A DNA stretch of 64,000 nucleotides, taken from contig NZ_CP063373.1 in the NCBI RefSeq assembly GCF_015160855.1, forward strand, positions 2,542,001-2,606,000. The letters are read 5' to 3'. The notes below the pieces were generated by a model, which was not told where the DNA came from, ran no database searches, and was given only the letters and a program-made list of their open reading frames with translations. The DNA is from Streptomyces ferrugineus. GTDB taxonomy: Bacteria > Actinomycetota > Actinomycetes > Streptomycetales > Streptomycetaceae. A program made the translations under genes and the position numbers. Positions within the stretch are counted from its first letter, which is position 1. Each line of letters opens with the position of its first letter. Shown one piece after another: positions 50,602 to 64,000 of the stretch.

Positions 50602-52251
50602 ATGGACGGCGCGCGATCGGAGAACGACGGGACGACTGCACGGAGAGCGGCTCCGCCCGGGAAGGGCGAGAAGGTCGCCGACTGGGCCGACGGGCGGCTC
50701 GGCCTCTACGCGCTGGCCAAAGCCAATATGCGCAAGGTCTTCCCGGACCACTGGTCCTTCATGCTGGGCGAGGTCTGCCTCTACAGCTTCCTGATCCTGA
50801 TCCTCACCGGCGTCTACCTCACCCTGTTCTTCGACCCGAGCACCAACGAGGTCGTCTACAACGGCACCTACGAGCCGCTCAACGGCGTCCTGATGACCAG
50901 GGCCTACGAGTCCACGCTCGACATCAGCTTCGACGTCCGCGGCGGGCTGCTCATGCGGCAGATCCACCACTGGGCGGCGCTGGTCTTCGTCACCGGCATG
51001 CTCGTGCACATGATGCGGGTGTTCTTCACCGGCGCCTTCCGCAAGCCGCGCGAGCTGAACTGGGTGTTCGGCTGGACCCTGCTGATGCTCGGCATCATCA
51101 CCGGCCTGACCGGCTACTCCCTCCCCGACGACCTGCTGTCCGGCACCGGCCTCAGGTTCGCGCACGGCGCGATCCTGTCCGTCCCGATCGTGGGCACCTA
51201 CCTGGCGTTCTTCCTCTTCGGCGGGGAGTTCCCCGGCGAGGACTTCATCGCCCGGCTGTACCCGGTCCACATCCTGCTGCTGCCCGGGATCATGCTCGGC
51301 CTGGTGGTCGCCCATCTGATCCTGGTCTTCTACCACAAGCACACCCAGTACCCCGGCCCCGGCCGCGACCAGAAGTCGGTCGTCGGCATGCCCTTCCTGC
51401 CGGTGTACATCGCCAAGGCGGGCGGCTTCTTCTTCCTGGTCTTCGGCGTGCTGACGATCATGGGCGGCATCGCCGGCATCAACCCGGTGTGGGCGTTCGG
51501 CCCCTACCGCCCCGACCTGGTGACCACCGGGGCCCAGCCCGACTGGTATCTGGGCTTCTCCGAGGGACTGATCCGGGTGATGCCGGGATGGGAGCTCAAC
51601 GCCTGGGGCCACACCCTGGAACTGGGCGTCTTCATCCCCTTCTCGCTGTTCCCGCTGATCCTGCTCGCGCTCGGCCTGTACCCCTTCCTGGAGGCGTGGA
51701 TCACCGGCGACAAGCGTGAGCACCACATCCTCGACCGGCCCCGCAACATGCCCGTGCGCACCGGGCTCGGCGCGGCCTGGCTGAGCCTGTACGCGGTGCT
51801 GCTGATCGGCGGCGGCAACGACATCGTGGCCACGCATCTGCATCTGTCCATCAACTCGATCACCTGGTTCGTACGGATCTCGGTCTTCGTCGTGCCGGTC
51901 CTCACCTACTACGTGACCAAGCGGATCTGTCTCGGACTGCAGCGCCGGGACCGGGACAAGGTGCTGCACGGCAGGGAGACCGGCATCATCAAGCGGCTGC
52001 CGCACGGCGAGTACATCGAGGTGCACGAGCCGGTCACCCAGGGCCAGCTGTTCACCCTCACCCAGCACGAGCAGCATCCGCCGTACGAGATCGGCGAGCG
52101 CGTCGACGCGAACGGCGTCCGGCGCCGGGTCACCGTCTCCCAGCGGGTGCGGGCCCGGCTGGCGCTGGCGATGTTCGGGCCCCGGTCGCGGATCACCAAG
52201 CCGACGGTGGCGGAGTACCGCGAGGTCACCAGCGGCGATCACCACCACTGA
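50602..52251 (+). CDS. Cytochrome b subunit (QcrB-like), encoded without the rest of complex III
   Basis: 549 residues from ATG at 50602 with GGGGAGG 7 bases upstream. An actinobacterial-type cytochrome bc1 b subunit: haem-ligand His pairs in QIHHWAALVFVTGMLVHM and RLYPVHILLLPGIM/LVVAHLILVFYHKH, and the Qo-site motif PDWY (QPDWYLGFSEGLIRV) in place of PEWY. About nine membrane helices and a 110-residue hydrophilic tail ending SGDHHH, as in actinobacterial QcrB. The Rieske protein and cytochrome c genes (qcrA, qcrC) are absent nearby, so this is a second, stand-alone copy. Its last 26 bp overlap the convergent ipdE2 gene. Confidence 0.9.
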   Translation: MDGARSENDGTTARRAAPPGKGEKVADWADGRLGLYALAKANMRKVFPDHWSFMLGEVCLYSFLILILTGVYLTLFFDPSTNEVVYNGTYEPLNGVLMTRAYESTLDISFDVRGGLLMRQIHHWAALVFVTGMLVHMMRVFFTGAFRKPRELNWVFGWTLLMLGIITGLTGYSLPDDLLSGTGLRFAHGAILSVPIVGTYLAFFLFGGEFPGEDFIARLYPVHILLLPGIMLGLVVAHLILVFYHKHTQYPGPGRDQKSVVGMPFLPVYIAKAGGFFFLVFGVLTIMGGIAGINPVWAFGPYRPDLVTTGAQPDWYLGFSEGLIRVMPGWELNAWGHTLELGVFIPFSLFPLILLALGLYPFLEAWITGDKREHHILDRPRNMPVRTGLGAAWLSLYAVLLIGGGNDIVATHLHLSINSITWFVRISVFVVPVLTYYVTKRICLGLQRRDRDKVLHGRETGIIKRLPHGEYIEVHEPVTQGQLFTLTQHEQHPPYEIGERVDANGVRRRVTVSQRVRARLALAMFGPRSRITKPTVAEYREVTSGDHHH

Positions 52252-53197
52252 GCAGGACCTCCGCCCGGCACACGTCCGGGCCGCCCCAGGCGGAGCGCAG
52301 CGCGCGGGCCTTGGTCAGCCACAGCGACAGGTCGAGCTCCGCCGTGTAACCGATCGCGCCGTGCAACTGCAGCGCGGTGCGGGCGGTGGCGTACGCGGCC
52401 TCACCGGCGGCCACCTTGGCGGCGGCAATGTCCGCGGGCGCCATGGTGAGCGCGGCGCCGAGGACCAGGGGCCGGGCGAACTCCAGGGCGATCTTCGCAT
52501 CGGCCAGGCGATGCTTGACGGCCTGGAAGGAGCCTATGGGGACGCCGAACTGGCTGCGCCCCTTGACGTGGCCGACCGTCTTGTCGAGCAGGGCGAGCCC
52601 GACGCCGAGGGCTTGGGCTGCGGTGGTGAGACGGGCGAGGGCTAGGGCGTGGGCGGTGGGCGGGTCGGGACTGAGGAGTTCACCGCCGGGTTCGAGAGGA
52701 GTCAGGCGGCGGGCCGGATCCAGGGAGGGGCGCACGGGGCCGTGGCCGGGGGAGAGGCGCAGACCGTCGGGGGTGAGCGCGAGGCGGGTGGTGGCCGCGT
52801 CGCCGTCCAGGGCGTACGGCGCCGTCCACGCCAGCGTCGCCACGGCCTCGCCCGCCGCCAGCGCCGGCAGCAGCCGCTTGGCCGGGCCGGGGTCCGCCAG
52901 CCCGCCGAGCAGGGCGGCCGCCGTGACGGTCTCCACGACGGGCCCCGGCACCGCATGGCGGCCCAACTCCACAAAGGCGACGGCGAGTTCGACGGGCCGC
53001 GGGCCCAGCCCCTCGTAGGCCTCGGGGACCGCCAGCGCGAACACGCCCGCCTCGGCGATACGGGACCACAGCGCCCGGCCGCTCGCATGCTCGCCCCGGC
53101 TCCACTCCCGTACGACCGACGGTGTGTCCGCCGCCGTCAGCATCGCGTCCAGGGAGTCGGCGAAGGCCCGCTGCTCGGCGTCGAGGAGGAACCTCAT
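52226..53197 (-). CDS. ipdE2: Acyl-CoA dehydrogenase, IpdE2-like small subunit
   Basis: 323 residues from ATG at 53197, sharing one base with the upstream gene's stop. The N-terminus MRFLLDAEQRAFADSLDAML and the helical C-terminal domain (KGRSQFGVPIGSFQAVKHRLADAK, LQLHGAIGYTAELDLSLWL) are those of FadE-type dehydrogenases, but the FAD-binding middle is short. This is the small partner of the alpha2-beta2 steroid acyl-CoA dehydrogenases; beside ipdE1 in a KstR2-type cluster it corresponds to IpdE2 (FadE33). With IpdE1 it should dehydrogenate the propionyl side chain of a HIP-CoA derivative. The symbol rests on context and recall, not a search. Confidence 0.8.
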   Translation of the reverse strand: MRFLLDAEQRAFADSLDAMLTAADTPSVVREWSRGEHASGRALWSRIAEAGVFALAVPEAYEGLGPRPVELAVAFVELGRHAVPGPVVETVTAAALLGGLADPGPAKRLLPALAAGEAVATLAWTAPYALDGDAATTRLALTPDGLRLSPGHGPVRPSLDPARRLTPLEPGGELLSPDPPTAHALALARLTTAAQALGVGLALLDKTVGHVKGRSQFGVPIGSFQAVKHRLADAKIALEFARPLVLGAALTMAPADIAAAKVAAGEAAYATARTALQLHGAIGYTAELDLSLWLTKARALRSAWGGPDVCRAEVLLSGGDRRW

Positions 53198-54336
53198 CAG
53201 CGTCGCCCCTTCGGCAGGCCGAGCAGCCGCTCGGCGATGATGTCGCGCTGGATCTCGTTCGTCCCCGCGTAGATGGGGCCGGCCAGGGCGAAGACGTACC
53301 GCTCGGACCAGTCGGTGTCGGCCCGCTCGCCGTCGGCGTCCAGGAGATCGAGGGCCGTCTCGTGCAGCGCGATGTCGAACTCCGACCAGAACACCTTGTT
53401 CAGGCTGGACTCCGGGCCGATCGACTCGCCGTCGAGGAAGCGGGAGGCGGCGGCGAAGGTGAAGAGCTGGTAGGCGCGGGCGCCGATCAGGGCGTCGGCC
53501 ACGCGGCTCTCGGTGCTCTGCGGGCTGCCCCGGTCCTGCCAGAGGCGGTGGAGGCGGTCGGCGCTCGCCAGGAAACGGCCGGGGGAGCGCAGCATCAGAC
53601 CGCGTTCGTTGCCCGCCGTCGACATCGCGATCCGCCACCCGCGGCCCGGCTCGCCGATCACGTCCTCGTCCGGCACGAACACCTCGTCCAGGAACAGCTC
53701 GGCGAAGGCGGGCTTGCCGTCCAGGCGGGCGATGGGACGGACCGTGACGCCGGGGGCGCGCAGGTCGAACATCAGGTAGGTCAGCCCCTGGTGGGGCTTG
53801 GGGGCGTCCGGGTCGCTGCGGAACAGGCCGAACGCGCGGTCGGCGAAGGCGGCGCGCGAGGACCAGGTCTTCTGGCCCGACAGCAGCCAGCCCCCGTCCG
53901 CGCGCACGGCCCTCGACCGGAGCGAGGCCAGGTCCGAGCCCGCCTCCGGCTCCGACCACGCCTGCGCCCAGATCACCTCGCCGGTCGCCATGGACGGAAG
54001 CACACGCGCGCGCTGCTCGGCCGTGCCGTGGTCGAAGAGGGTCGGGGCCAGGAGACTGACGCCGTTCTGACCGACGCGGCCCGGTGCGCCCGCCGCGTAG
54101 TACTCCTCCTCGAACAGCAGCCACCGTACGAGTGAGGCGTCCCGACCGCCGTACACCGCCGGCCAGTTCACCACCGACCAGCGGTCCGCGGCCAGCTCGG
54201 CCTCCCACGCCCGGTGCGCCGCGAAGCCCTCCTCGGTCTCCAGGGAGGGGAGCGGATCGGGCGGCACATGCGCATGGAGCCAGGCGCGGGCCTCGGCGCG
54301 GAACGCCTCGTCGGCGGCGCAGTGGGTGAGATCCAC
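53197..54336 (-). CDS. ipdE1: Acyl-CoA dehydrogenase, IpdE1-like large subunit
   Basis: 379 residues from ATG at 54336. Standard FadE layout: N-terminal helices with GWPAVYGGRD-like NWPAVYGGRDASLVRW, FAD contact AWSEPEAGSDLASLRSRAV and QKTWSSRAAFADR, and the C-terminal IYAGTNEIQRDIIAERLLG, which is close to FadE30 (IpdE1) of M. tuberculosis as I remember it. It pairs with the small subunit gene immediately downstream. The gene is transcribed away from ipdF over a 72-bp region holding a KstR2-type operator. Role: first beta-oxidation step on the HIP-CoA side chain (inferred). Confidence 0.82.
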   Translation of the reverse strand: MDLTHCAADEAFRAEARAWLHAHVPPDPLPSLETEEGFAAHRAWEAELAADRWSVVNWPAVYGGRDASLVRWLLFEEEYYAAGAPGRVGQNGVSLLAPTLFDHGTAEQRARVLPSMATGEVIWAQAWSEPEAGSDLASLRSRAVRADGGWLLSGQKTWSSRAAFADRAFGLFRSDPDAPKPHQGLTYLMFDLRAPGVTVRPIARLDGKPAFAELFLDEVFVPDEDVIGEPGRGWRIAMSTAGNERGLMLRSPGRFLASADRLHRLWQDRGSPQSTESRVADALIGARAYQLFTFAAASRFLDGESIGPESSLNKVFWSEFDIALHETALDLLDADGERADTDWSERYVFALAGPIYAGTNEIQRDIIAERLLGLPKGRR

Positions 54337-54374
54337 GGTCGCCCTCCCTTCCTGCGAGCCCTACAGATTCTCTT

Positions 54375-54392
54375 CCCTAACAAGTGTTTGGT
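54375..54392. promoter_or_regulatory. KstR2-type operator 1 between ipdE1 and ipdF
   Basis: On the minus strand it reads ACCAAACACTTGTTAGGG, matching the pseudo-palindrome ACCNAACANNTGTTNGGT except for the last base. It fits the published KstR2 motif AnCAAGnnCTTGnT at 9 of 10 fixed positions. It overlaps TAGGTT (54392-54397), a possible -10 for ipdF, so repressor binding would block it. The same palindrome recurs at 60425-60442. Confidence 0.8.
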
Positions 54393-54408
54393 AGGTTAGC
54401 GTGCTGCT

Positions 54409-55191
54409 ATGACAAACGTCGAGGCGCCGGCGTACGTTCCCGGGCACGGGCTGCTCCGCGGCCGCACCGCCGTCATCACCGCGGCGGCCGGTGCCGGCAT
54501 CGGCGGGGCGACCGCGCGCCGCTTCCTGGAGGAGGGCGCGCGGGTGCTGATCAGCGACGCGCACGCGCGCCGGCTGAAGGAGCACGAGGGCGAGCTGGCC
54601 CGTCGGTTCGAGGGCGCGGTGACGTCCGCGGTGTGCGACGTCACCGACGAGGCGCAGGTGCGGGCCCTGTTCGACACCGCCGTGCGGGAACACGGCCGGC
54701 TCGACGTCGTCGTCAACAACGCGGGCCTCGGCGGGACTTCGCCGCTCGTCGACATGACCGACGAGCAGTGGTCGAAGGTCCTCGACGTGACCTTGAACGG
54801 CACCTTCCGATGTACCCGGGCCGCCCTGCGCCACCTGCGTGACACCGGCGGCGTGATCGTCAACAACGCCTCCGTCGTCGGCTGGCGCGCCCAGGCCGGC
54901 CAGGCGCACTACGCGGCCGCCAAGGCGGGTGTGATGGCGCTGACCCGGTGCGCGGCGATCGAGGCGGCCGAGTACGGGGTGCGGGTGAACGCCGTGGCAC
55001 CGAGCCTCGCCATGCACCCCCATCTGGCCAAGGTGACCACCCCGGAACTGCTGGAGGAGCTCACCGCCCGCGAGGCCTTCGGGCGGTACGCCGAGCCATG
55101 GGAGGTGGCCAACGTGATCGTCTTCCTCGCGTCGGGCTACTCGTCGTACCTGACCGGAGAGATCGTCTCCGTCAGCAGCCAGCATCCCTAG
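54409..55191 (+). CDS. ipdF: SDR family oxidoreductase, IpdF-like
   Basis: 260 residues from ATG at 54409. Classical SDR: cofactor loop TAAAGAGIGGATARRFLEEG, NNAGLGG, catalytic Ser in NNASVVGW and Tyr/Lys in HYAAAKAG. The opening AYVPGHGLLRGRTAVITAAA and the ending SSYLTGEIVSVSSQHP are close to Rv3559c (IpdF) of M. tuberculosis as I recall it. IpdF oxidises the ring hydroxyl of a HIC-CoA intermediate in HIP breakdown. First gene of ipdF-kstR2-fadA6, controlled from operator 1; kstR2 starts 15 bp after its stop. Confidence 0.85.
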   Translation: MTNVEAPAYVPGHGLLRGRTAVITAAAGAGIGGATARRFLEEGARVLISDAHARRLKEHEGELARRFEGAVTSAVCDVTDEAQVRALFDTAVREHGRLDVVVNNAGLGGTSPLVDMTDEQWSKVLDVTLNGTFRCTRAALRHLRDTGGVIVNNASVVGWRAQAGQAHYAAAKAGVMALTRCAAIEAAEYGVRVNAVAPSLAMHPHLAKVTTPELLEELTAREAFGRYAEPWEVANVIVFLASGYSSYLTGEIVSVSSQHP

Positions 55192-55206
55192 GACCACAAT
55201 GGACCC

Positions 55207-55824
55207 GTGCCGACCAAGAAGAAGCCCCAGGTGACCGCCGCCGCCCAGGCCGCCCGGCGGCGCGAACTCCTCGACACCGCCGCCGAGGTCTTCGCCGAGC
55301 AGGGCTACAACGCCACGACCGTACGCAAGATCGCGGACCACGCGGGCATGCTCGCGGGCAGCCTCTACTACCACTTCGACTCCAAGGAGTCGATGCTGGA
55401 GGAGATCCTGCGGACCTTCCTCGACGAGCTCTGGGGCGGCTACGACACCGTCCTGGGCGCCGAGCTCGGACCCCGCGAAACCCTCGAAGCCCTGGTCACC
55501 GAGTCGTTCCGGGAGATCGACCGGCACCGCGCCGCCGTCGCGATCTACCAGAAGGAGAACAAGCAACTGGTGGCGCAGGAACGGTTCGCGTTCCTCGCCG
55601 ATTCCCAGCGCAGATTCGAGAAGGCGTGGCTGTCCACGCTGGAGCGCGGCGTCGCGGCCGGTGTGTTCCGGTCCGACCTCGACGTCCGGCTCACCTACCG
55701 GTTCGTCCGCGACACGGTGTGGGTCGCCGCGTCCTGGTACCGGCCCGGCGGACAGCACAGCCCGGAGGAGATCGCCCGGCAGTACCTGTCGATGGTGCTG
55801 GACGGGATCGCTGTACGCACATAA
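55207..55824 (+). CDS. kstR2: TetR family repressor, KstR2-like
   Basis: 205 residues from GTG at 55207. Residues about 18-62 form the TetR HTH (RRRELLDTAAEVFAEQGYNA, then TTVRKIADHAGMLAGSLYYHF with SKESMLEEIL). The C-terminal ligand domain resembles KstR2 of mycobacteria, including IYQKENKQLVAQERFAFL and the ending VWVAASWYRPGGQHSPEEI with QYLSMVLDGI. KstR2 releases DNA when HIP-CoA binds. Its presumed operators are the two 18-bp palindromes in this cluster. Located between ipdF and fadA6 in the same transcript, so it is autoregulated. Confidence 0.87.
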   Translation: MPTKKKPQVTAAAQAARRRELLDTAAEVFAEQGYNATTVRKIADHAGMLAGSLYYHFDSKESMLEEILRTFLDELWGGYDTVLGAELGPRETLEALVTESFREIDRHRAAVAIYQKENKQLVAQERFAFLADSQRRFEKAWLSTLERGVAAGVFRSDLDVRLTYRFVRDTVWVAASWYRPGGQHSPEEIARQYLSMVLDGIAVRT

Positions 55825-55850
55825 CCCACTGGTCCCATTGGGGAGTTGCC

Positions 55851-57008
55851 ATGGCCGAGGCCTACATCGTCGAAGCGGTCCGTACGCCCGTCGGGCGGCG
55901 CGGAGGAGGGCTCAGCGGGGTCCATCCGGCCGACCTGGGCGCGCATGTCCTCAAGGAACTCGTCTCGCGCGCGGGCATGGACCCGGCCGCCGTCGAGGAC
56001 GTCGTCTTCGGCTGTCTGGACGCGGTCGGGCCACAGGCCGGCGACATCGCGCGGACCTGCTGGCTGGCGGCCGGGCTGCCCGAGGAGGTGCCGGGTGTGA
56101 CCGTGGACCGGCAGTGCGGGTCCTCGCAGCAGGCCGTGCACTTCGCCGCGCAGGGCGTGCTGTCCGGCACCCAGGACCTGGTGGTCGCGGGCGGCGTGCA
56201 GAACATGTCGATGATCCCCATCGCCTTCGCCACCCGGCAGGCCGCCGAGCCGCTCGGGCTGACCGCCGGTCCCTTCGCCGGCAGCGAGGGCTGGCGGGCG
56301 CGGTACGGGGAGAAGCCCGTCAACCAGTTCGTCGGCGCCGAGATGATCGCCGCCAAGTGGGGGATCACCCGGCAGGACCAGGAGGAGTTCGCGCTGCGCT
56401 CGCACCGGCGGGCGCTGCGGGCGATCGACGAGGGGCGCTTCGAGCGGGAGACCGTGGCGTACGGCCAGGTCGGCTTCGACGAAGGGCCGCGCCGGGACAC
56501 CTCGCTGGAGAAGATGGCCGGGCTGAAGCCGGTCATCGACGGCGGCACGATCACCGCGGCCTGTTCCTCACAGGTCTCCGACGGCGCGGCGGCGATGCTG
56601 CTGGCCTCGGAGCGGGCGGTGCGCGAGCATGGGCTCACGCCCCGGGCCCGGGTGCACCACCTCTCGGTGCGCGGTGAGGATCCCATCCGCATGCTCACCG
56701 CCCCGATACCCGCCACCGCCCACGCCCTGAAGAAGACCGGCCTGTCCATCGACGACATCGACCTCGTCGAGATCAACGAGGCCTTCGCGCCCGTCGTCCT
56801 GGCCTGGCTGAAGGAGACCGGCGCGGATCCCGACAGGGTCAATGTCAACGGCGGTGCGATCGCCCTGGGGCACCCTCTGGGCGCCACCGGAGCCAAGCTG
56901 ATGACGACCCTGCTGCACGAACTGGAGCGCACCGGAGGCCGGTTCGGACTCCAGACCATGTGCGAGGGCGGGGGACAGGCCAACGTGACGATCATCGAGA
57001 GGCTGTGA
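55851..57008 (+). CDS. fadA6: Acetyl-CoA acetyltransferase, FadA6-like thiolase
   Basis: 385 residues from ATG at 55851. Thiolase with the nucleophile C89 in VDRQCGSSQQA, the His in GGAIALGHPLGATGAK and the second Cys in MCEGGGQANVT. The sequence VTVDRQCGSSQQA, PIPATAHALKKTGLSIDDID and FGLQTMCEGGG agree with FadA6 (Rv3556c) as remembered. It performs the thiolytic cleavage late in ring C/D breakdown. Its last 17 bp overlap the end of the convergent ipdC gene. GGGGAG stands 6 bases before the ATG. Confidence 0.87.
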   Translation: MAEAYIVEAVRTPVGRRGGGLSGVHPADLGAHVLKELVSRAGMDPAAVEDVVFGCLDAVGPQAGDIARTCWLAAGLPEEVPGVTVDRQCGSSQQAVHFAAQGVLSGTQDLVVAGGVQNMSMIPIAFATRQAAEPLGLTAGPFAGSEGWRARYGEKPVNQFVGAEMIAAKWGITRQDQEEFALRSHRRALRAIDEGRFERETVAYGQVGFDEGPRRDTSLEKMAGLKPVIDGGTITAACSSQVSDGAAAMLLASERAVREHGLTPRARVHHLSVRGEDPIRMLTAPIPATAHALKKTGLSIDDIDLVEINEAFAPVVLAWLKETGADPDRVNVNGGAIALGHPLGATGAKLMTTLLHELERTGGRFGLQTMCEGGGQANVTIIERL

Positions 57009-58041
57009 GACGCCGGCACGTCTCCTCCGCCTCCTTCATGATCCGCTCCACCAGTTCCGCGCACGACGGCAGGTCGTCGATCACCCCGGCGACCTGCCCG
57101 GACGCCATCACCCCCAGATCCGTACGGCCGTCCACCATGGACGCCTTCAGCAGCATCGGCGTGTTCGCGGCGAGCAGGACCTGGCTGAAGGTCAGGTCCT
57201 TGCCGTGCCGGAGCGCGCGACCGTCCTGGAGCATCCGGCGCCAGCTGGTGCCGGACAGCTTCCGGTAGCCGGCCGCCCTGCGGACCGCCCGGAGAAGAGC
57301 CCGCACACGTCCGGAGTGCTCGAGCGCGTCGACCAGTTCGGTGCGCAGCATGCGATGGGGCAGGCCGTCCACGGCCGTCGTGACCGTGACGTCCCGTACC
57401 GTCGCCGCCAGATACCGCGCCTTGACCGCCTGCGGCACCGTCGAGTCCGAGGTGAGCAGGAACCGCGTGCCCATGGCGATGCCCGCCGCCCCGTAGGCCA
57501 GCGCCGCGGCCAGTCCCCGCCCGTCGAAGAAGCCGCCCGCCGCCACGACCGGTATCTCCACGGCGTCCACGACCTGCGGCAGCAGCACCGTCGTCGCCAC
57601 CTCACCGGTGTGCCCGCCGCCCTCCCCACCCTGCACGATCACGGCGTCCGCACCCCAGGCGGCGACCTTCTCGGCATGCCGCCGGGCGCCGATCGAGGGA
57701 ATGACGACCACGTCGGCCTCCTTGAGCCCGGCCATCAGCTCACGGGAAGGCGCGAGGGCGAAGGAGGCCACCCGCACCCCCTCGTCGATCATCACGCTCA
57801 CCCGGTCGCCCGCGTCCGAGGCGTCCGCCCGCAGGTTCACCCCGAACGGCGCGTCCGTACGGGACTTGACCTCCCGTATCGCCGCGCGCAGCCGGTCCAC
57901 CGTCATCGTCGCCGAGGCCAGGATGCCCAGCGCCCCCGCGTTCGCCGTCGCCGAGACCAGCCGCGGCCCCGCCACCCAGCCCATCCCCGTCTGCACGATC
58001 GGGTGGCGGACCCCGACCAGCCGGGTCAGCGGCGTCTCCAT
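56992..58041 (-). CDS. ipdC: FMN-dependent oxidoreductase IpdC (nitronate monooxygenase fold)
   Basis: 349 residues from ATG at 58041, sharing a base with the ipdB stop. TIM-barrel of the nitronate monooxygenase/enoyl reductase type: start RHPIVQTGMGWVAGPRLVSA, flavin loops VIVQGGEGGGHTGEVATT and PVVAAGGFFDGRGLAAALAYG, then GIAMGTRFLLTSDSTVP. These segments are almost word for word those of Rv3553 (IpdC) as I recall it. IpdC oxidises the CoA ester to HIEC-CoA, the substrate for ring D opening. Last gene of echA20-ipdA-ipdB-ipdC. Confidence 0.9.
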   Translation of the reverse strand: METPLTRLVGVRHPIVQTGMGWVAGPRLVSATANAGALGILASATMTVDRLRAAIREVKSRTDAPFGVNLRADASDAGDRVSVMIDEGVRVASFALAPSRELMAGLKEADVVVIPSIGARRHAEKVAAWGADAVIVQGGEGGGHTGEVATTVLLPQVVDAVEIPVVAAGGFFDGRGLAAALAYGAAGIAMGTRFLLTSDSTVPQAVKARYLAATVRDVTVTTAVDGLPHRMLRTELVDALEHSGRVRALLRAVRRAAGYRKLSGTSWRRMLQDGRALRHGKDLTFSQVLLAANTPMLLKASMVDGRTDLGVMASGQVAGVIDDLPSCAELVERIMKEAEETCRRLTASR

Positions 58042-58796
58042 CACACACCGACCTCCCTGGCCCGGGTGTTCTCCGGGTCGAGCACCTCGCGGATGAGCCG
58101 CAGTTCCTCGGCGGTGGGTGCGCGGGTGTGCGGGACGTCGTCCGGGACGGTCAGCTCGAACGCGGTCGCCTCCCGCACCTGCTCCGGTGTGACCCCCGGA
58201 TGGAGCGAGACCGGCCGCATCGAGTGGTCCGGGGTGTCGAAATCGAAGACGCCCAGGTCGGAGACGACACGGGGGATGCGGTGATAGCGGGCGGCGTCGC
58301 CCACGCGGTCGTAGCCGACCCCGCACACCATGTCGACCTTCTCCACGAAGACGCGCCTGGAGTGCCGGGGGACCCAGTAACTGGTCGGGTTGTTGAGCGT
58401 GTTGACCGGTGCCCCGCGCACCCCCAGCAACTGCCGCTTCGGCCGCTCCCAGTCGCCGATGCAGGAGATGTTCTGGTTGCCGTACCGGTCGATCTGGCTC
58501 GCGCCCATCATCACGTGCCGCCGGCCGCCGGTGACCAGGGCGAGGTGCTGCCGATAGGGCAGCCAGCCCTCGACGGTGCCGTCCGGCGCGACGAGCAGCG
58601 CCTCCCCGTCGGTCAGCAGCAGATCCGGCGCGAAGGCGCGGCGCGCGAGGCGGGCACCGATGGCCGGGATCAGGCCCATCGGACTGGCCAGCACCTCCCC
58701 GTCGTCCCGCCAGGCCTCGGCGCAGGCGATCACGCAGTACTCGGCACGGGTGACGTCCGCGGACCCGGTGCCGGTGCCCTCCGTCATGACCTCCAT
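58041..58796 (-). CDS. ipdB: IpdB, beta subunit of the ring C-opening CoA hydrolase
   Basis: 251 residues from ATG at 58796 with GGGGAGG just upstream; ATG at 58787 in ATGA overlap with ipdA is an alternative. Class I CoA transferase beta fold: DLLLTDGEALLVAPDG, GGRRHVMMGASQIDRYGNQN, VGGVRG-like LLGVRGAPVNTLNNPTSYWV and DLGVFDFDTPDHSMR, then SLHPGVTPEQVREATAFEL. The Asn-rich NTLNNPTSYWV and the rest match IpdB (Rv3552) closely. IpdAB hydrolyses the last carbocycle of COCHEA-CoA by a retro-Claisen reaction. Confidence 0.92.
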   Translation of the reverse strand: MEVMTEGTGTGSADVTRAEYCVIACAEAWRDDGEVLASPMGLIPAIGARLARRAFAPDLLLTDGEALLVAPDGTVEGWLPYRQHLALVTGGRRHVMMGASQIDRYGNQNISCIGDWERPKRQLLGVRGAPVNTLNNPTSYWVPRHSRRVFVEKVDMVCGVGYDRVGDAARYHRIPRVVSDLGVFDFDTPDHSMRPVSLHPGVTPEQVREATAFELTVPDDVPHTRAPTAEELRLIREVLDPENTRAREVGV

Positions 58797-59629
58797 GACC
58801 CCTCCCCGACCGCCGACTGGTACGCCTGCTCGTCCCCGCCCAGGAACCGTGCCGCGAACTCGGGCCAGGGTGTGGTCGCATACGTCTTCTGGAAGGCCTC
58901 GTCCCGGCCGTAGTCGGGTGCGCAGGACGTGAAGTGCGCGCCGTTCGGAGCCTCGACGACCCCCGTCACCGTGTGCCGCTTGATCAGCAGGGACTGCGGG
59001 GGTGCCTCCTTCGTCAGCTCGGCCGTGTCGACGATCCGTTCGCACGAGACGTAAGCTGTCTCCGCCGCCTCGCAGAACAGGTCGTCGAAATACGGGTCGG
59101 GCCCCAGATACCGGCCGTTGCCCCGCCGGTCGGCGCGGCCGACGTGGACCAGGGCCGCGTCCAGCCGCAGGGCCGGCATGGCCACGAAGGTCTCCCCGTC
59201 GTCGTACGGCGAAGTCACCGTCCGCAGGCCCGGATTGACGCGCATGACGTCCGAACCGATCCCGGCCCGCACCGGCAGGAACGGCAGCCGGTTCGCGGCG
59301 GCGTGCAGTCCCCACATGAACATCGCCTCGTCGATCTCCATCAGTTCGAAGGCACCGCGCTCACGGGCCGCTCGATAGTGCGGCTCCAGCGGGATCGAGT
59401 CGAGGGTGACGAAGGGGGTGACCAGTTTGCGGATGCGTCCGGCGGCCGCCAGCATGCCGACGTCGGGGCCGCCGTACGAGACGATCGTGAGGTCGGTGAC
59501 CTCGGAGCGCAGCAGGGCGCGCACCAGGGCCATCGGTTTGCGGCGCGAGCCCCAGCCGCCGATGCCCAGGGTCATGCCGTCGCGCAGCCGGGACACCACC
59601 TCGTCCGCGGTCGTCGTCTTGTCGCTCAC
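58784..59629 (-). CDS. ipdA: IpdA, alpha subunit of the ring C-opening CoA hydrolase
   Basis: 281 residues from GTG at 59629, directly after the echA20 stop. Class I CoA transferase alpha fold: RLRDGMTLGIGGWGSRRKPM at 14-33, SYGGPDVGMLAAAGRI, and E101 in MEIDEAMF, which aligns with the glutamate held to be catalytic in IpdA (E105 in M. tuberculosis, from memory). RTVTSPYDDGETFVAMPALR and GPDPYFDDLFCEAAE complete the match with Rv3551. Together with IpdB it opens ring C; it is a hydrolase despite the CoA transferase fold. Confidence 0.92.
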   Translation of the reverse strand: MSDKTTTADEVVSRLRDGMTLGIGGWGSRRKPMALVRALLRSEVTDLTIVSYGGPDVGMLAAAGRIRKLVTPFVTLDSIPLEPHYRAARERGAFELMEIDEAMFMWGLHAAANRLPFLPVRAGIGSDVMRVNPGLRTVTSPYDDGETFVAMPALRLDAALVHVGRADRRGNGRYLGPDPYFDDLFCEAAETAYVSCERIVDTAELTKEAPPQSLLIKRHTVTGVVEAPNGAHFTSCAPDYGRDEAFQKTYATTPWPEFAARFLGGDEQAYQSAVGEGSWRS

Positions 59630-60388
59630 TCAGCCACCGTCCTTTCCGAAACCGTCCCGGACCCGGTCGGCCACCCCGCTGAGATTCGCCTCGAACGTGA
59701 AGCCCTGCTCGAAGCGGTAGCTGCGGCGGACGTCGACCGGATCGATGCCGTTGATCGCGGCCTTGGCCAGCCGCAGCAGCTGCCCGTCCTTCGCGGCGAT
59801 CTCGCGTGCCAGCTCCAGCGCGGCGGCGCGCAGTTCCTCGCGCGGCACCAGGCGCCACACCGAGCCGTGCGCATGCAGCTCGGCCGCCGTCGCCGTGCGC
59901 GAGGTGTAGTACAGGGCGCGCATCAGGTGCTGGGGGACCAGCCGGGCCAGATGCGTGGCCGCGCCCAGCGCGCCCCGGTCCAGCTCGGGCAGCCCGAAGG
60001 TGGCGTCCTCGCTCGCCACGATCGCGTCCGCGTTGCCCACCAGGCCGATACCGCCGCCCAGGCAGAAGCCGTGCACCGCCGCGACGACCGGGACCTCGCA
60101 GTCGTAGACCGCGGCGAAGGCGTCCGCGCAGGCGTGGTTGACGCCGATCAGCGCGCTGTGCCCGTCCCGCTGTATCTCCTTGATGTCCACGCCCGCGTTG
60201 AACCCGCGCCCCTCCGCCGCGAGGACGACACACCGGATCCGCGGATCGCGGCCCGCCGCCCGCACCGCGTCGGCCAGGGCGGACCAGCCGTCCACCGGCA
60301 GGGCGTTCACCGGCGGGAAGTCGACCGTGACGACGGCGATTCCCTCTTTCCCGGACCCCTTTTCCGGGGACGAGGTGGAGACACCCAT
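59630..60388 (-). CDS. echA20: Enoyl-CoA hydratase family protein EchA20 (ring D opening)
   Basis: 252 residues from ATG at 60388; the longer frame to 60433 would begin inside the operator and is rejected. Crotonase fold: VDFPPVNALPVDGWSALADA, oxyanion loop AEGRGFNAGVDIKEIQRDG, HGFCLGGGIGLVGNADAI and FGLPELDRGALGAATHLARL. The pattern and the ending SYRFEQGFTFEANLSGVADR match EchA20 (Rv3550). In the HIP pathway EchA20 opens the five-membered ring D of HIEC-CoA by hydrolysis. First gene of a four-gene operon read from operator 2. Confidence 0.9.
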   Translation of the reverse strand: MGVSTSSPEKGSGKEGIAVVTVDFPPVNALPVDGWSALADAVRAAGRDPRIRCVVLAAEGRGFNAGVDIKEIQRDGHSALIGVNHACADAFAAVYDCEVPVVAAVHGFCLGGGIGLVGNADAIVASEDATFGLPELDRGALGAATHLARLVPQHLMRALYYTSRTATAAELHAHGSVWRLVPREELRAAALELAREIAAKDGQLLRLAKAAINGIDPVDVRRSYRFEQGFTFEANLSGVADRVRDGFGKDGG

Positions 60389-60424
60389 GGACGCATCAGC
60401 TACCTTCGCACTCAGCCGCTTTCC

Positions 60425-60442
60425 ACCAAACATTTGTTAGGT
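60425..60442. promoter_or_regulatory. KstR2-type operator 2 between echA20 and the SDR pair
   Basis: The plus strand reads ACCAAACATTTGTTAGGT, an exact instance of ACCNAACANNTGTTNGGT and 8 of 10 fixed positions of the published KstR2 motif. It lies 37 bp before the echA20 ATG and 47 bp before the SDR GTG, so one site can control both directions. It differs from operator 1 at only two positions. Confidence 0.82.
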
Positions 60443-60488
60443 GTGTGGCTTCGAAGCTAGCAGTCGACACAGACGAGCGGGAGAGCCT

Positions 60489-61247
60489 GTGGATAACTCT
60501 CACGAGCCGCGACCGACCGGCCGGACCGTCGTCGTCACCGGCGGTACGCGAGGCGTCGGTGCCGGGATCGCGCGGGCTTTCGCCGAGGCCGGCGCCGACG
60601 TCGTGACCTGTGCGCGCAGACCGCCCGAAGTCCCGGTCAAGGGCGTCGAGTTCAGGCCCGTCGACCTGCGCGACCCGCGAGCCGTACGGGCCTTCTTCGC
60701 CGCCCTGCCCCGCGTCGACGTCCTCGTCAACAACGCGGGCGGCACACCGTACCGACGGCTGACGGACGCGGATGCCGAGCGGCATGCCCGCGTCATCGAG
60801 CTGAACCTCGTCGCCCCGCTGACGGCGTCCCTGGCCGCGTACGAGCAGCTGAAGCGGTCGAGGGGCTCGGTCGTGATGGTCGGCAGCGTCAGCGGCGGTC
60901 GCCCCTCGCCCGGCTCGGCGGCCTACGGGGCGGCCAAGGCCGGGCTGGACAGCCTGGCGCGCTCGATGGCGGTCGAGTGGGCGCCGGAGGTGCGCGTCAA
61001 CACGCTCGTCGTCGGCATGGTCCGCACCGAGCTGGCCCACCTGCACTACGGAGGCGACGACGGCATCGCCGAGGTCTCCCGCACGGTGCCGCTCGGCCGT
61101 CTCGCCGAACCCGCCGACGTCGGCACGGCGGCCGTCTTCCTCGCCTCCGACGCCGCCGCCTACATCAGCGGGGCGAGCCTGCTCGTGCACGGCGGGGGCG
61201 AACGGCCCGCGTTCCTGGACGCCGCAACGGTCAACAAGGAGGCATGA
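60489..61247 (+). CDS. SDR family oxidoreductase (Rv3549c-like)
   Basis: 252 residues from GTG at 60489 with GGGAGAG 5 bases upstream; an in-frame ATG at 60441 overlaps the operator and is unlikely. SDR features: cofactor loop VTGGTRGVGAGIARAFAEAG, NNAGGTPY, catalytic Ser in GSVSGGRPSPGS and Tyr/Lys in AYGAAKAG. The end SGASLLVHGGGERPAFL is typical of FabG-like enzymes. Its position next to echA20 corresponds to Rv3549c in the mycobacterial cluster. The exact hydroxyacyl- or keto-CoA substrate is unknown. Confidence 0.85.
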   Translation: MDNSHEPRPTGRTVVVTGGTRGVGAGIARAFAEAGADVVTCARRPPEVPVKGVEFRPVDLRDPRAVRAFFAALPRVDVLVNNAGGTPYRRLTDADAERHARVIELNLVAPLTASLAAYEQLKRSRGSVVMVGSVSGGRPSPGSAAYGAAKAGLDSLARSMAVEWAPEVRVNTLVVGMVRTELAHLHYGGDDGIAEVSRTVPLGRLAEPADVGTAAVFLASDAAAYISGASLLVHGGGERPAFLDAATVNKEA

Positions 61248-61248
61248 C

Positions 61249-62172
61249 ATGAGCCGGATGTGTGAGGGACGGGTTGTCGTGGTCACCGGCGCGGGGCGGG
61301 GGCTCGGGCGCGCGCACGCGCTCGCGTTCGCCGCCGCGGGGGCGAGGGTCGTCGTCAACGACCTCGACGTCGGCCTCGACGGCACCCGCGGCGCCGGGGC
61401 ACAGGCCCCCGCCGGCAGCCCCGCCCGACAGGTCGTCGCCGAGATCCGCGCGGCGGGCGGTGAGGCCGTCGCGCACGGCGGTGACATCGCGACCGGCGCC
61501 GGGGCGGCCTCGCTGGTGGCGGCCGCGCTGGAGACGTACGGCCGCCTCGACACCCTCGTCAACAACGCCGGGTTCCTGCGCGACCGGATGCTGGTCAACC
61601 TCGACGACGACGACTGGGACGCCGTCGTACGCGTCCACCTCAAGGGTCACTTCCTCCCCCTGAAGCACGCGGCCGCGCACTGGCGGGCCGAGGCCAAGGC
61701 GGGGCGCAGGCCGGTCGCGCGGATCGTCAACACCAGCAGCGGGGCGGGGCTGCTGGGCTCGCTCGGGCAGTGCGGCTACAGCGCCGCGAAGGCCGGAATC
61801 GTCGGCCTCACCCTGGTCGCGGCGGCCGAACTGGCCCGCTACGGCATCCAGGTCAACGCGATCGCCCCGGCGGCCCGCACACGCATGACGGAACACACCT
61901 TCGCGGAGTCGATGGCGGCCCCCGACACCGGCTTCGACGCCATGGCCCCGGAGAACGTCTCACCCCTGGTCGTCTGGCTGGGCTCGGCCGCGAGCGAGGG
62001 CGTCACCGGCCGGGTCTTCGAGGCGGAGGGCGGCCGGATCACCGTCATGGAGGGCTGGCGCGCGGGACCGACGGCCGACAAGGGCGCCCGGTGGACGCCG
62101 GAGGAGGCGGGGGAGACGGCACTCAAGCTGCTGGGAGAGGCGGAGGTGCCGGGGGCGGTGTACGGGGCATAG
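61249..62172 (+). CDS. SDR family oxidoreductase (Rv3548c-like)
   Basis: 307 residues from ATG at 61249, 1 bp after the previous stop, with AAGGAGG upstream. SDR core: VTGAGRGLGRAHALAFAAAG, VVNDLDVGLDG, NNAGFLRDRMLVNL, Ser in IVNTSSGAGLLGS and Tyr/Lys in GYSAAKAG. The RAHALAFAAAGARVVVNDL pattern and the C-terminal extension after residue 250 (TVMEGWRAGPTADKG) resemble the peroxisomal hydroxyacyl-CoA dehydrogenase type, as in Rv3548c. Likely a hydroxyacyl-CoA dehydrogenase of the HIP pathway. Last gene of the cluster. Confidence 0.85.
   Translation: MSRMCEGRVVVVTGAGRGLGRAHALAFAAAGARVVVNDLDVGLDGTRGAGAQAPAGSPARQVVAEIRAAGGEAVAHGGDIATGAGAASLVAAALETYGRLDTLVNNAGFLRDRMLVNLDDDDWDAVVRVHLKGHFLPLKHAAAHWRAEAKAGRRPVARIVNTSSGAGLLGSLGQCGYSAAKAGIVGLTLVAAAELARYGIQVNAIAPAARTRMTEHTFAESMAAPDTGFDAMAPENVSPLVVWLGSAASEGVTGRVFEAEGGRITVMEGWRAGPTADKGARWTPEEAGETALKLLGEAEVPGAVYGA

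Positions 62173-62492: not shown

Positions 62493-64000
<1,508 letters not shown>

Follow-up and report, generated by a model that had tools for sequence, protein, structure and literature searches.

The window analysed here, a stretch of 64,000 nucleotides from the genome of Streptomyces ferrugineus (9,959,088 bases; G000 in our numbering), contains a putative KstR2/IpdAB-type cluster for the degradation of steroid rings C and D, formed by eleven adjacent genes that fill positions 52226–62172. These genes make up four transcription units arranged as two divergent pairs. On the minus strand lie genes for two acyl-CoA (CoA, coenzyme A) dehydrogenase (ACAD) subunits, a fadE32-type beta subunit (52226–53197), predicted partner in a MOODA-CoA dehydrogenase, and a fadE31-type alpha subunit (53197–54336). 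They are followed on the plus strand by ipdF (54409–55191), coding for a short-chain dehydrogenase/reductase (SDR; 451.5 bits on NF005880, cut-off 336), by kstR2 (55207–55824), coding for a TetR repressor whose best PDB match was 2ibd (235 bits), the KstR2 structures 4w1u/4w97 scoring 200 bits, and by the thiolase gene fadA6 (55851–57008; 702.5 bits on NF005865, cut-off 591). The next minus-strand genes are ipdC (56992–58044), for a flavin-dependent reductase with domain PF03060, ipdB (58041–58796) and ipdA (58784–59629), for the predicted beta and alpha subunits of COCHEA-CoA hydrolase, and echA20 (59630–60388), for a predicted HIEC-CoA hydrolase (404 bits on NF005925, cut-off 260). Finally, two SDR genes occupy the plus strand, one Rv3549c-like (60489–61247; 368.7 bits on NF005893, cut-off 255) and one Rv3548c-like (61249–62172; 457.4 bits on NF005861, cut-off 373), the latter probably starting at 61249 and not at the composition-called 61279.

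Eight named loci from Rhodococcus, Nocardia, Gordonia and others, out of 80 fetched, served as references, and homology and synteny agreed for nine of the cluster proteins in one-way, not reciprocal, comparisons. Identities to the eight loci were 55–58% for IpdA and likewise for IpdB, 62–68% for IpdC, 63–72% for EchA20 and 54–69% for the SDRs; where the syntenic gene lay within the reference stretch, they were 67–70% for FadA6 (five loci), 55–60% for KstR2 (five loci) and 65–69% for IpdF (four loci). The order echA20-ipdA-ipdB-ipdC, with the Rv3548c-like SDR gene divergent, was the same in all eight loci, the second SDR being unmatched in two of them. In a PDB search, IpdA and IpdB matched the solved IpdAB pair (6co6_A, E 2.9e-99, and 6co6_B, E 1.1e-88) far better than any other structure, and IpdC and EchA20 returned general relatives only. 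The translations carry Glu101 in IpdA, NTLNNPTSYWV in IpdB, GGEGGGHTG in IpdC and GGGIGL in the oxyanion loop of EchA20. The IpdA Glu was kept in 94/94 aligned rows and the IpdB Gly in 83/83, the window row counting twice in each set; in the window this Gly is residue 64, aligned with Gly57 of R. jostii IpdB, and the catalytic beta-subunit Glu of class I CoA-transferases was absent from all 83 IpdB rows. The pairing of IpdA Glu with IpdB Gly is given as a trait of IpdAB, unlike CoA-transferases, in PMC5380842. In trees, all built by a quick method, the Streptomyces IpdB rows formed one group (branch value 100). An earlier note on this DNA had proposed a KstR2/IpdAB-type ring C/D cluster at these positions, in four short divergent operons and with the motifs listed, and had suggested checking IpdAB against ordinary CoA-transferases; each of these points was borne out, IpdAB siding with the enzymes of steroid degraders.

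The same note had matched the eleven genes one to one with the KstR2 regulon. Nine of its names hold, and the two ACAD genes, which it called ipdE1 and ipdE2 (names that we take to replace fadE30 and fadE33), had to be renamed. Of the FadE proteins compared, R. ruber FadE31 (66% identity) is nearer to the alpha subunit than FadE30 (IpdE1; 41%), and R. ruber FadE32 (55%) is nearer to the beta subunit than FadE33 (IpdE2; 39%); in the trees, the two subunits fell into the FadE31 and FadE32 clades with branch values of 100 and 99, respectively. The NF050027 (IpdE2) cut-off was rejected as a test, and clade trees were used, because R. ruber FadE33 itself reaches only 305 of the 450 bits required. 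In the PDB, FadE31 and FadE32 were nearest to ACADs, with 136 and 69 bits, respectively, which is too distant for naming a substrate; the FadE numbers were taken from the order of genes in the references and from Table 1 of PMC5380842. As judged from sequence, the two ACADs are thus FadE31 and FadE32, which act after ring opening, and not IpdE1 and IpdE2, so that the cluster alone would be incomplete. FadE32 is the proposed MOODA-CoA dehydrogenase, and the cluster would therefore cover ring opening and later steps, without CoA activation or side-chain removal. FadD3, IpdE1, IpdE2 and a side-chain hydratase were not found in 52226–62172, and the description of the cluster as "complete-looking" had to be given up.

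By homology, IpdA, IpdB, IpdC, IpdF, EchA20, FadA6, KstR2 and the two SDRs are counterparts of the actinobacterial KstR2 regulon, to which FadE31 and FadE32 likewise belong; all of them, together with the box between the SDR and echA20 genes described below, are shared with the KstR2 regulon of M. tuberculosis, M. smegmatis and R. jostii (PMC5380842, PMC3068626). Unlike that regulon, as described there, the window cluster lacks FadD3, IpdE1, IpdE2 and the side-chain hydratase, its gene order differs from the mycobacterial and rhodococcal one, and it shows two boxes where three are reported. According to its abstract, PMC3068626 considers the kstR2 regulon highly conserved among actinomycetes.

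Putative KstR2-like boxes were located in both divergent promoters, AACAAGTGTTTGGT (54379–54392, plus strand) between fadE31 and ipdF and AACAAATGTTTGGT (60425–60438, minus strand) between echA20 and the SDR genes. The latter position matches the Rv3549c/Rv3550 site bound by KstR2 (PMC3068626). The two boxes, at 54379 and 60425, are copies of AACAARTGTTTGGT, with one and two mismatches, respectively, to the motif published in 2010, AnCAAGnnCTTGnT (PMC3068626). They were the only exact sites in the 9.96-Mb genome, against 0.004 expected by base composition; allowing two mismatches added four more genome-wide, and a reversed control pattern gave nine within two mismatches. A first motif scan with up to two mismatches had returned 23 matches against 5.7 expected, and all but the two promoter sites were dropped from it. 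With a slightly relaxed pattern, two sites each were present in 14/14 other Streptomyces clusters, ten from genomes without and four from genomes with the ring A/B enzyme KshA; G178 and G022, fetched without their ring C/D genes, stand outside this count. These clusters were read with a simple gene caller, which missed a few genes.

The pathway that degrades HIP, the two-ring, 13-carbon remnant of steroids, is familiar as the final part of steroid catabolism, and candidates for its entry enzymes were found at a second locus, about 1.7 Mb from the first. A Nocardia FadD3 query gave a single strong hit in this genome, at 919.6 kb of contig C1 (500 bits, the next 247). The encoded protein, which falls in the FadD3 clade, exceeded the 657-bit cut-off of the FadD3 family model with 805 bits, against 735 for R. 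ruber FadD3. An IpdE2 (FadE33)-clade protein is encoded at 909.2 kb and a FadE30 (IpdE1)-clade protein at 872.6 kb, 47 kb off the FadD3-like gene, in three FadE/FadD3 clade trees that carry long-branch warnings. In addition, locus 2 carries Ltp2-type, ChsH2-type OB-fold, hydratase and thiolase genes. The Ltp2-like, OB-fold, hydratase and FadD3-like genes were adjacent in all ten genomes read, and the IpdE2-clade gene was seen in eight of these stretches, not in those of G073 and G271. Compared over its first 140 residues, an orthologue of the locus-2 FadD3 was present in 20/20 genomes at 73–93% identity. The gene at 872.6 kb was also considered as an orthologue of the steroid-cluster IpdE1 and rejected, as G073 and G097 hold both types.

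The genus was surveyed in 295 genomes, drawn evenly from a larger group. IpdB matches occurred in 239 of them; by our own orthologue split, 209 genomes with E 1.5e-81 or better were taken as positive, and 30 weak matches (E 1.1e-47 or worse) were left uncounted. KshA scores (PF19298) were bimodal, above 260 bits in 28 genomes and below 102 in the rest, whereas the 23-bit Pfam cut-off was passed by 80 genomes, the window genome included; HsaA (NF045629) exceeded its 450-bit cut-off in 28. KshA or HsaA was present in 29 genomes, every one of them IpdB-positive, and the other 180 of the 209 had neither. What the survey adds is that IpdB is present in most of the sampled Streptomyces genomes, mostly without ring A/B markers, and no description of this in Streptomyces was found among the open-licence PMC papers searched. 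The earlier statement that this capacity is not usually credited to the genus is restated in this form, since steroid pathways had been assigned in 2016 to 2 of 57 Streptomyces genomes (PMC4810484) and a report of growth on HIP from 1977, discussed below, exists. As a detail of the survey, KshA exceeded 260 bits in G180, where HsaA did not pass its cut-off, and G237 showed the opposite.

Presence of the two loci varied together. FadE30-type matches (E <1e-68) were found in 209/209 IpdB-positive against 7/86 IpdB-negative genomes and, in a set of 78 chosen tree genomes, the FadD3-like gene in 37/37 against 2/41, that of G011 consisting of two pieces at different places. Counted over independent pairs, IpdB and the FadD3-like gene went the same way in an average of 9.7 of 11 pairs and the opposite way in none (median p 0.002), and IpdB and the FadE30-type gene in 7.4 and none (median p 0.008, range to 0.06), against 1.7 same and 2.4 opposite for a control CoA-transferase (median p 1). 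A single deletion would not explain such co-loss, given the roughly 1.7 Mb that separate the loci in this genome. Mapped on a GltB tree of the 78 genomes, IpdB needs 14 state changes, at least 11 of them on supported branches. Ten IpdB-negative genomes were read at the site: the flank gene hyp62 was kept in all ten, ipdA, ipdB, ipdC and echA20 were called in none, and in G171 and G236 qcrB2 and hyp62 stood side by side with zero or one small open reading frame between them. G143 retains six of the eleven cluster genes and G163 ipdF only. This pattern reads as a ring C/D cluster that was ancestral in the genus and then deleted repeatedly, and our best reading of it is a two-locus HIP-type pathway of early origin in the genus with frequent losses. 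The at least 11 supported changes, the partly deleted cluster of G143 and the lone ipdF of G163 would also suit a relic, the decaying lower half of a lost steroid pathway; against this, IpdA, IpdB, IpdC, FadA6 and two boxes were present in all 14 other clusters read, the IpdA Glu and IpdB Gly are invariant, and loss of the cluster accompanies loss of a distant locus, which makes decay an improbable explanation.

In the own genome, unlike M. tuberculosis, M. smegmatis and R. jostii, neither KshA nor HsaA of steroid-degrader grade was found, the best KshA match, divided between the two contig ends, reaching 53 bits, in the lower mode, and the best HsaA match E 2.6e-52, not among the 28 genomes over the cut-off. 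A strain that degrades whole steroids through ring A/B genes unlike KshA and HsaA would be in keeping with PMC5380842, where HIP is described as the point at which the aerobic and anaerobic routes of steroid degradation meet, but with both enzymes below that grade, and no other route searched for, we regard this as very improbable. By comparison, the clusters of four KshA-positive Streptomyces (G073, G011, G097 and G290) share the ring C/D genes and two boxes each with the window, and those of G073 and G097 also hyp62. Ring A/B genes lie between the last SDR gene and hyp62 in G073 and G097 and adjoin the ring C/D genes in G290, while in G011 KshA adjoins them and HsaA is found 5.4 Mb away. Unlike the window cluster, these clusters add a FadE30 gene and, in G073, hsaEGF, kshA, kshB, hsaADCB and kstD; among these G073 genes, HsaA and HsaD scored over and HsaC and KstD under the NCBIfam cut-offs, the rest being named by order and resemblance.

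With a probability of roughly 0.55, we propose that the cluster forms one half, that for rings C and D, of an HIP-type pathway spread over two loci, with HIP taken from outside the cell. In the scheme that we infer, which covers the catalytic steps, KstR2 binding, the substrate, its source and the joint working of the two loci, the FadD3-clade ligase of locus 2 would form HIP-CoA, and the IpdE1- and IpdE2-clade dehydrogenases with their partners would trim the side chain to 5-OH-HIC-CoA. Then, IpdF and IpdC would yield HIEC-CoA, EchA20 would hydrolyse ring D to give COCHEA-CoA, IpdAB would hydrolyse ring C, and FadE31/FadE32 would dehydrogenate MOODA-CoA, with KstR2 keeping both divergent promoters closed until an acyl-CoA such as HIP-CoA binds. 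As locus 2 would supply the entry enzymes, the bacterium would use external HIP. Since 180 of the 209 IpdB-positive genomes lack ring A/B markers, these soil bacteria probably feed on a steroid remnant, or a compound resembling one, that other organisms produce. Growth on HIP was reported for a streptomycete that is not known to be the strain analysed here, Streptomyces rubescens, which yielded MOODA (Hashimoto and Hayakawa 1977, cited in PMC5380842); this fits, because MOODA-CoA is the expected substrate of FadE31/FadE32, FadE32 being the dehydrogenase proposed for it, and the cluster offers a possible genetic basis for that observation.

The main doubt about this proposal concerns the substrate, and the following points count against it. 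By sequence comparison, the FadD3 of locus 2 and that of the steroid clusters are paralogues, and the KshA-positive genomes keep both: a further copy at 48–61% identity was found in 8/8 KshA-positive and 0/12 KshA-negative genomes of the 20 compared, and the KshA-negative G012, G090 and G109, from outside this set, hold several extra FadD3-family ligases at 51–61%. The presence of both FadD3s in these genomes, and of both FadE30 types in the trees for G073 and G097, suggests a different substrate for locus 2. Its IpdE2-clade protein sits on a long branch and scores 208 bits against the 450-bit cut-off (R. ruber FadE33, 305). Genome-wide, no exact or one-mismatch box occurred outside the cluster and no two-mismatch box at locus 2, which therefore lies outside the same regulon by this motif, and the window KstR2 is without a motif that PMC13176608 reports solely from Mycobacteriaceae KstR2. 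The gap in which the threshold for FadE30-type matches was set is narrow and leaves 7 discordant genomes of 295, and the 78 tree genomes, chosen by us to hold both states, include six of those seven. In addition, the own-genome ring A/B negative covers KshA and HsaA, with KstD, HsaC and HsaD not searched.

Several of these observations would also suit a genus-wide route, formed by the same two loci, that degrades a hydrindane acid of non-steroidal origin, such as a product of terpenoid or polyketide breakdown, which the locus-2 ligase and dehydrogenases would activate, the steroid ring A/B module joining a shared ring C/D hub in about a tenth of the genus. The 180 genomes without KshA and HsaA, the retention of both FadD3s and both FadE30 types, and the Ltp2-type and ChsH2-type OB-fold proteins, not obviously needed for HIP breakdown, are in its favour, whereas the closeness of the EchA20/IpdAB set to its counterparts in steroid degradation and the likeness of the boxes to KstR2 sites speak against it. 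We know of no such non-steroidal hydrindane substrate, and hold this alternative as tentative. Equally tentative is the reading that ring C/D opening in Streptomyces is a genus-wide, ancestral non-steroid module, its two loci repeatedly lost together and degrading a hydrindane acid, to which the steroid degraders of the genus merely couple ring A/B genes of their own. Given the presence of IpdB in most sampled genomes and the scarcity of ring A/B markers, either antibiotic producers commonly cross-feed on what remains of steroids, or there is a second natural substrate for IpdAB chemistry; Streptomyces is also offered as a non-pathogenic genus for work on IpdAB and KstR2.

Some further observations were made around these genes. 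In the own genome, one part of a KshA_C-like Rieske gene lies at each end of the contig (G000 C1:9958633–9959031 and 7–111); the assembly was thus cut inside this gene, which is odd for a linear chromosome. An HsaB-like flavin reductase gene lies near locus 2 (G000 C1:895060–895644; 189 bits against a cut-off of 230), despite there being no HsaA over the cut-off in the own genome. In the record of Kitasatospora arboriphila NRRL B-24581 (L076), IpdB is 84% identical to that of R. jostii and 57% to that of the window, and its FadE30 groups with Gordonia and Rhodococcus; the record is possibly mislabelled or contaminated. In L126, L127, L129, L131 and L134, cold-shock-like and helicase-like genes adjoin ipdC and split the cluster; such neighbours of ipdC in some other Streptomyces were tried as fadD3 and rejected, their sequence starts reading as cold-shock-like and helicase-like. 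At the cluster edges, a QcrB-type cytochrome b gene (50602–52251; 769 bits on NF050120) abuts the window cluster without qcrA or qcrC alongside, and is missing from that edge in some relatives. Finally, the conserved flank gene at 62493–63389 has no Pfam or NCBIfam match, and its product, with HEVMH and a C-terminal cysteine cluster, is zinc-metallopeptidase-like.

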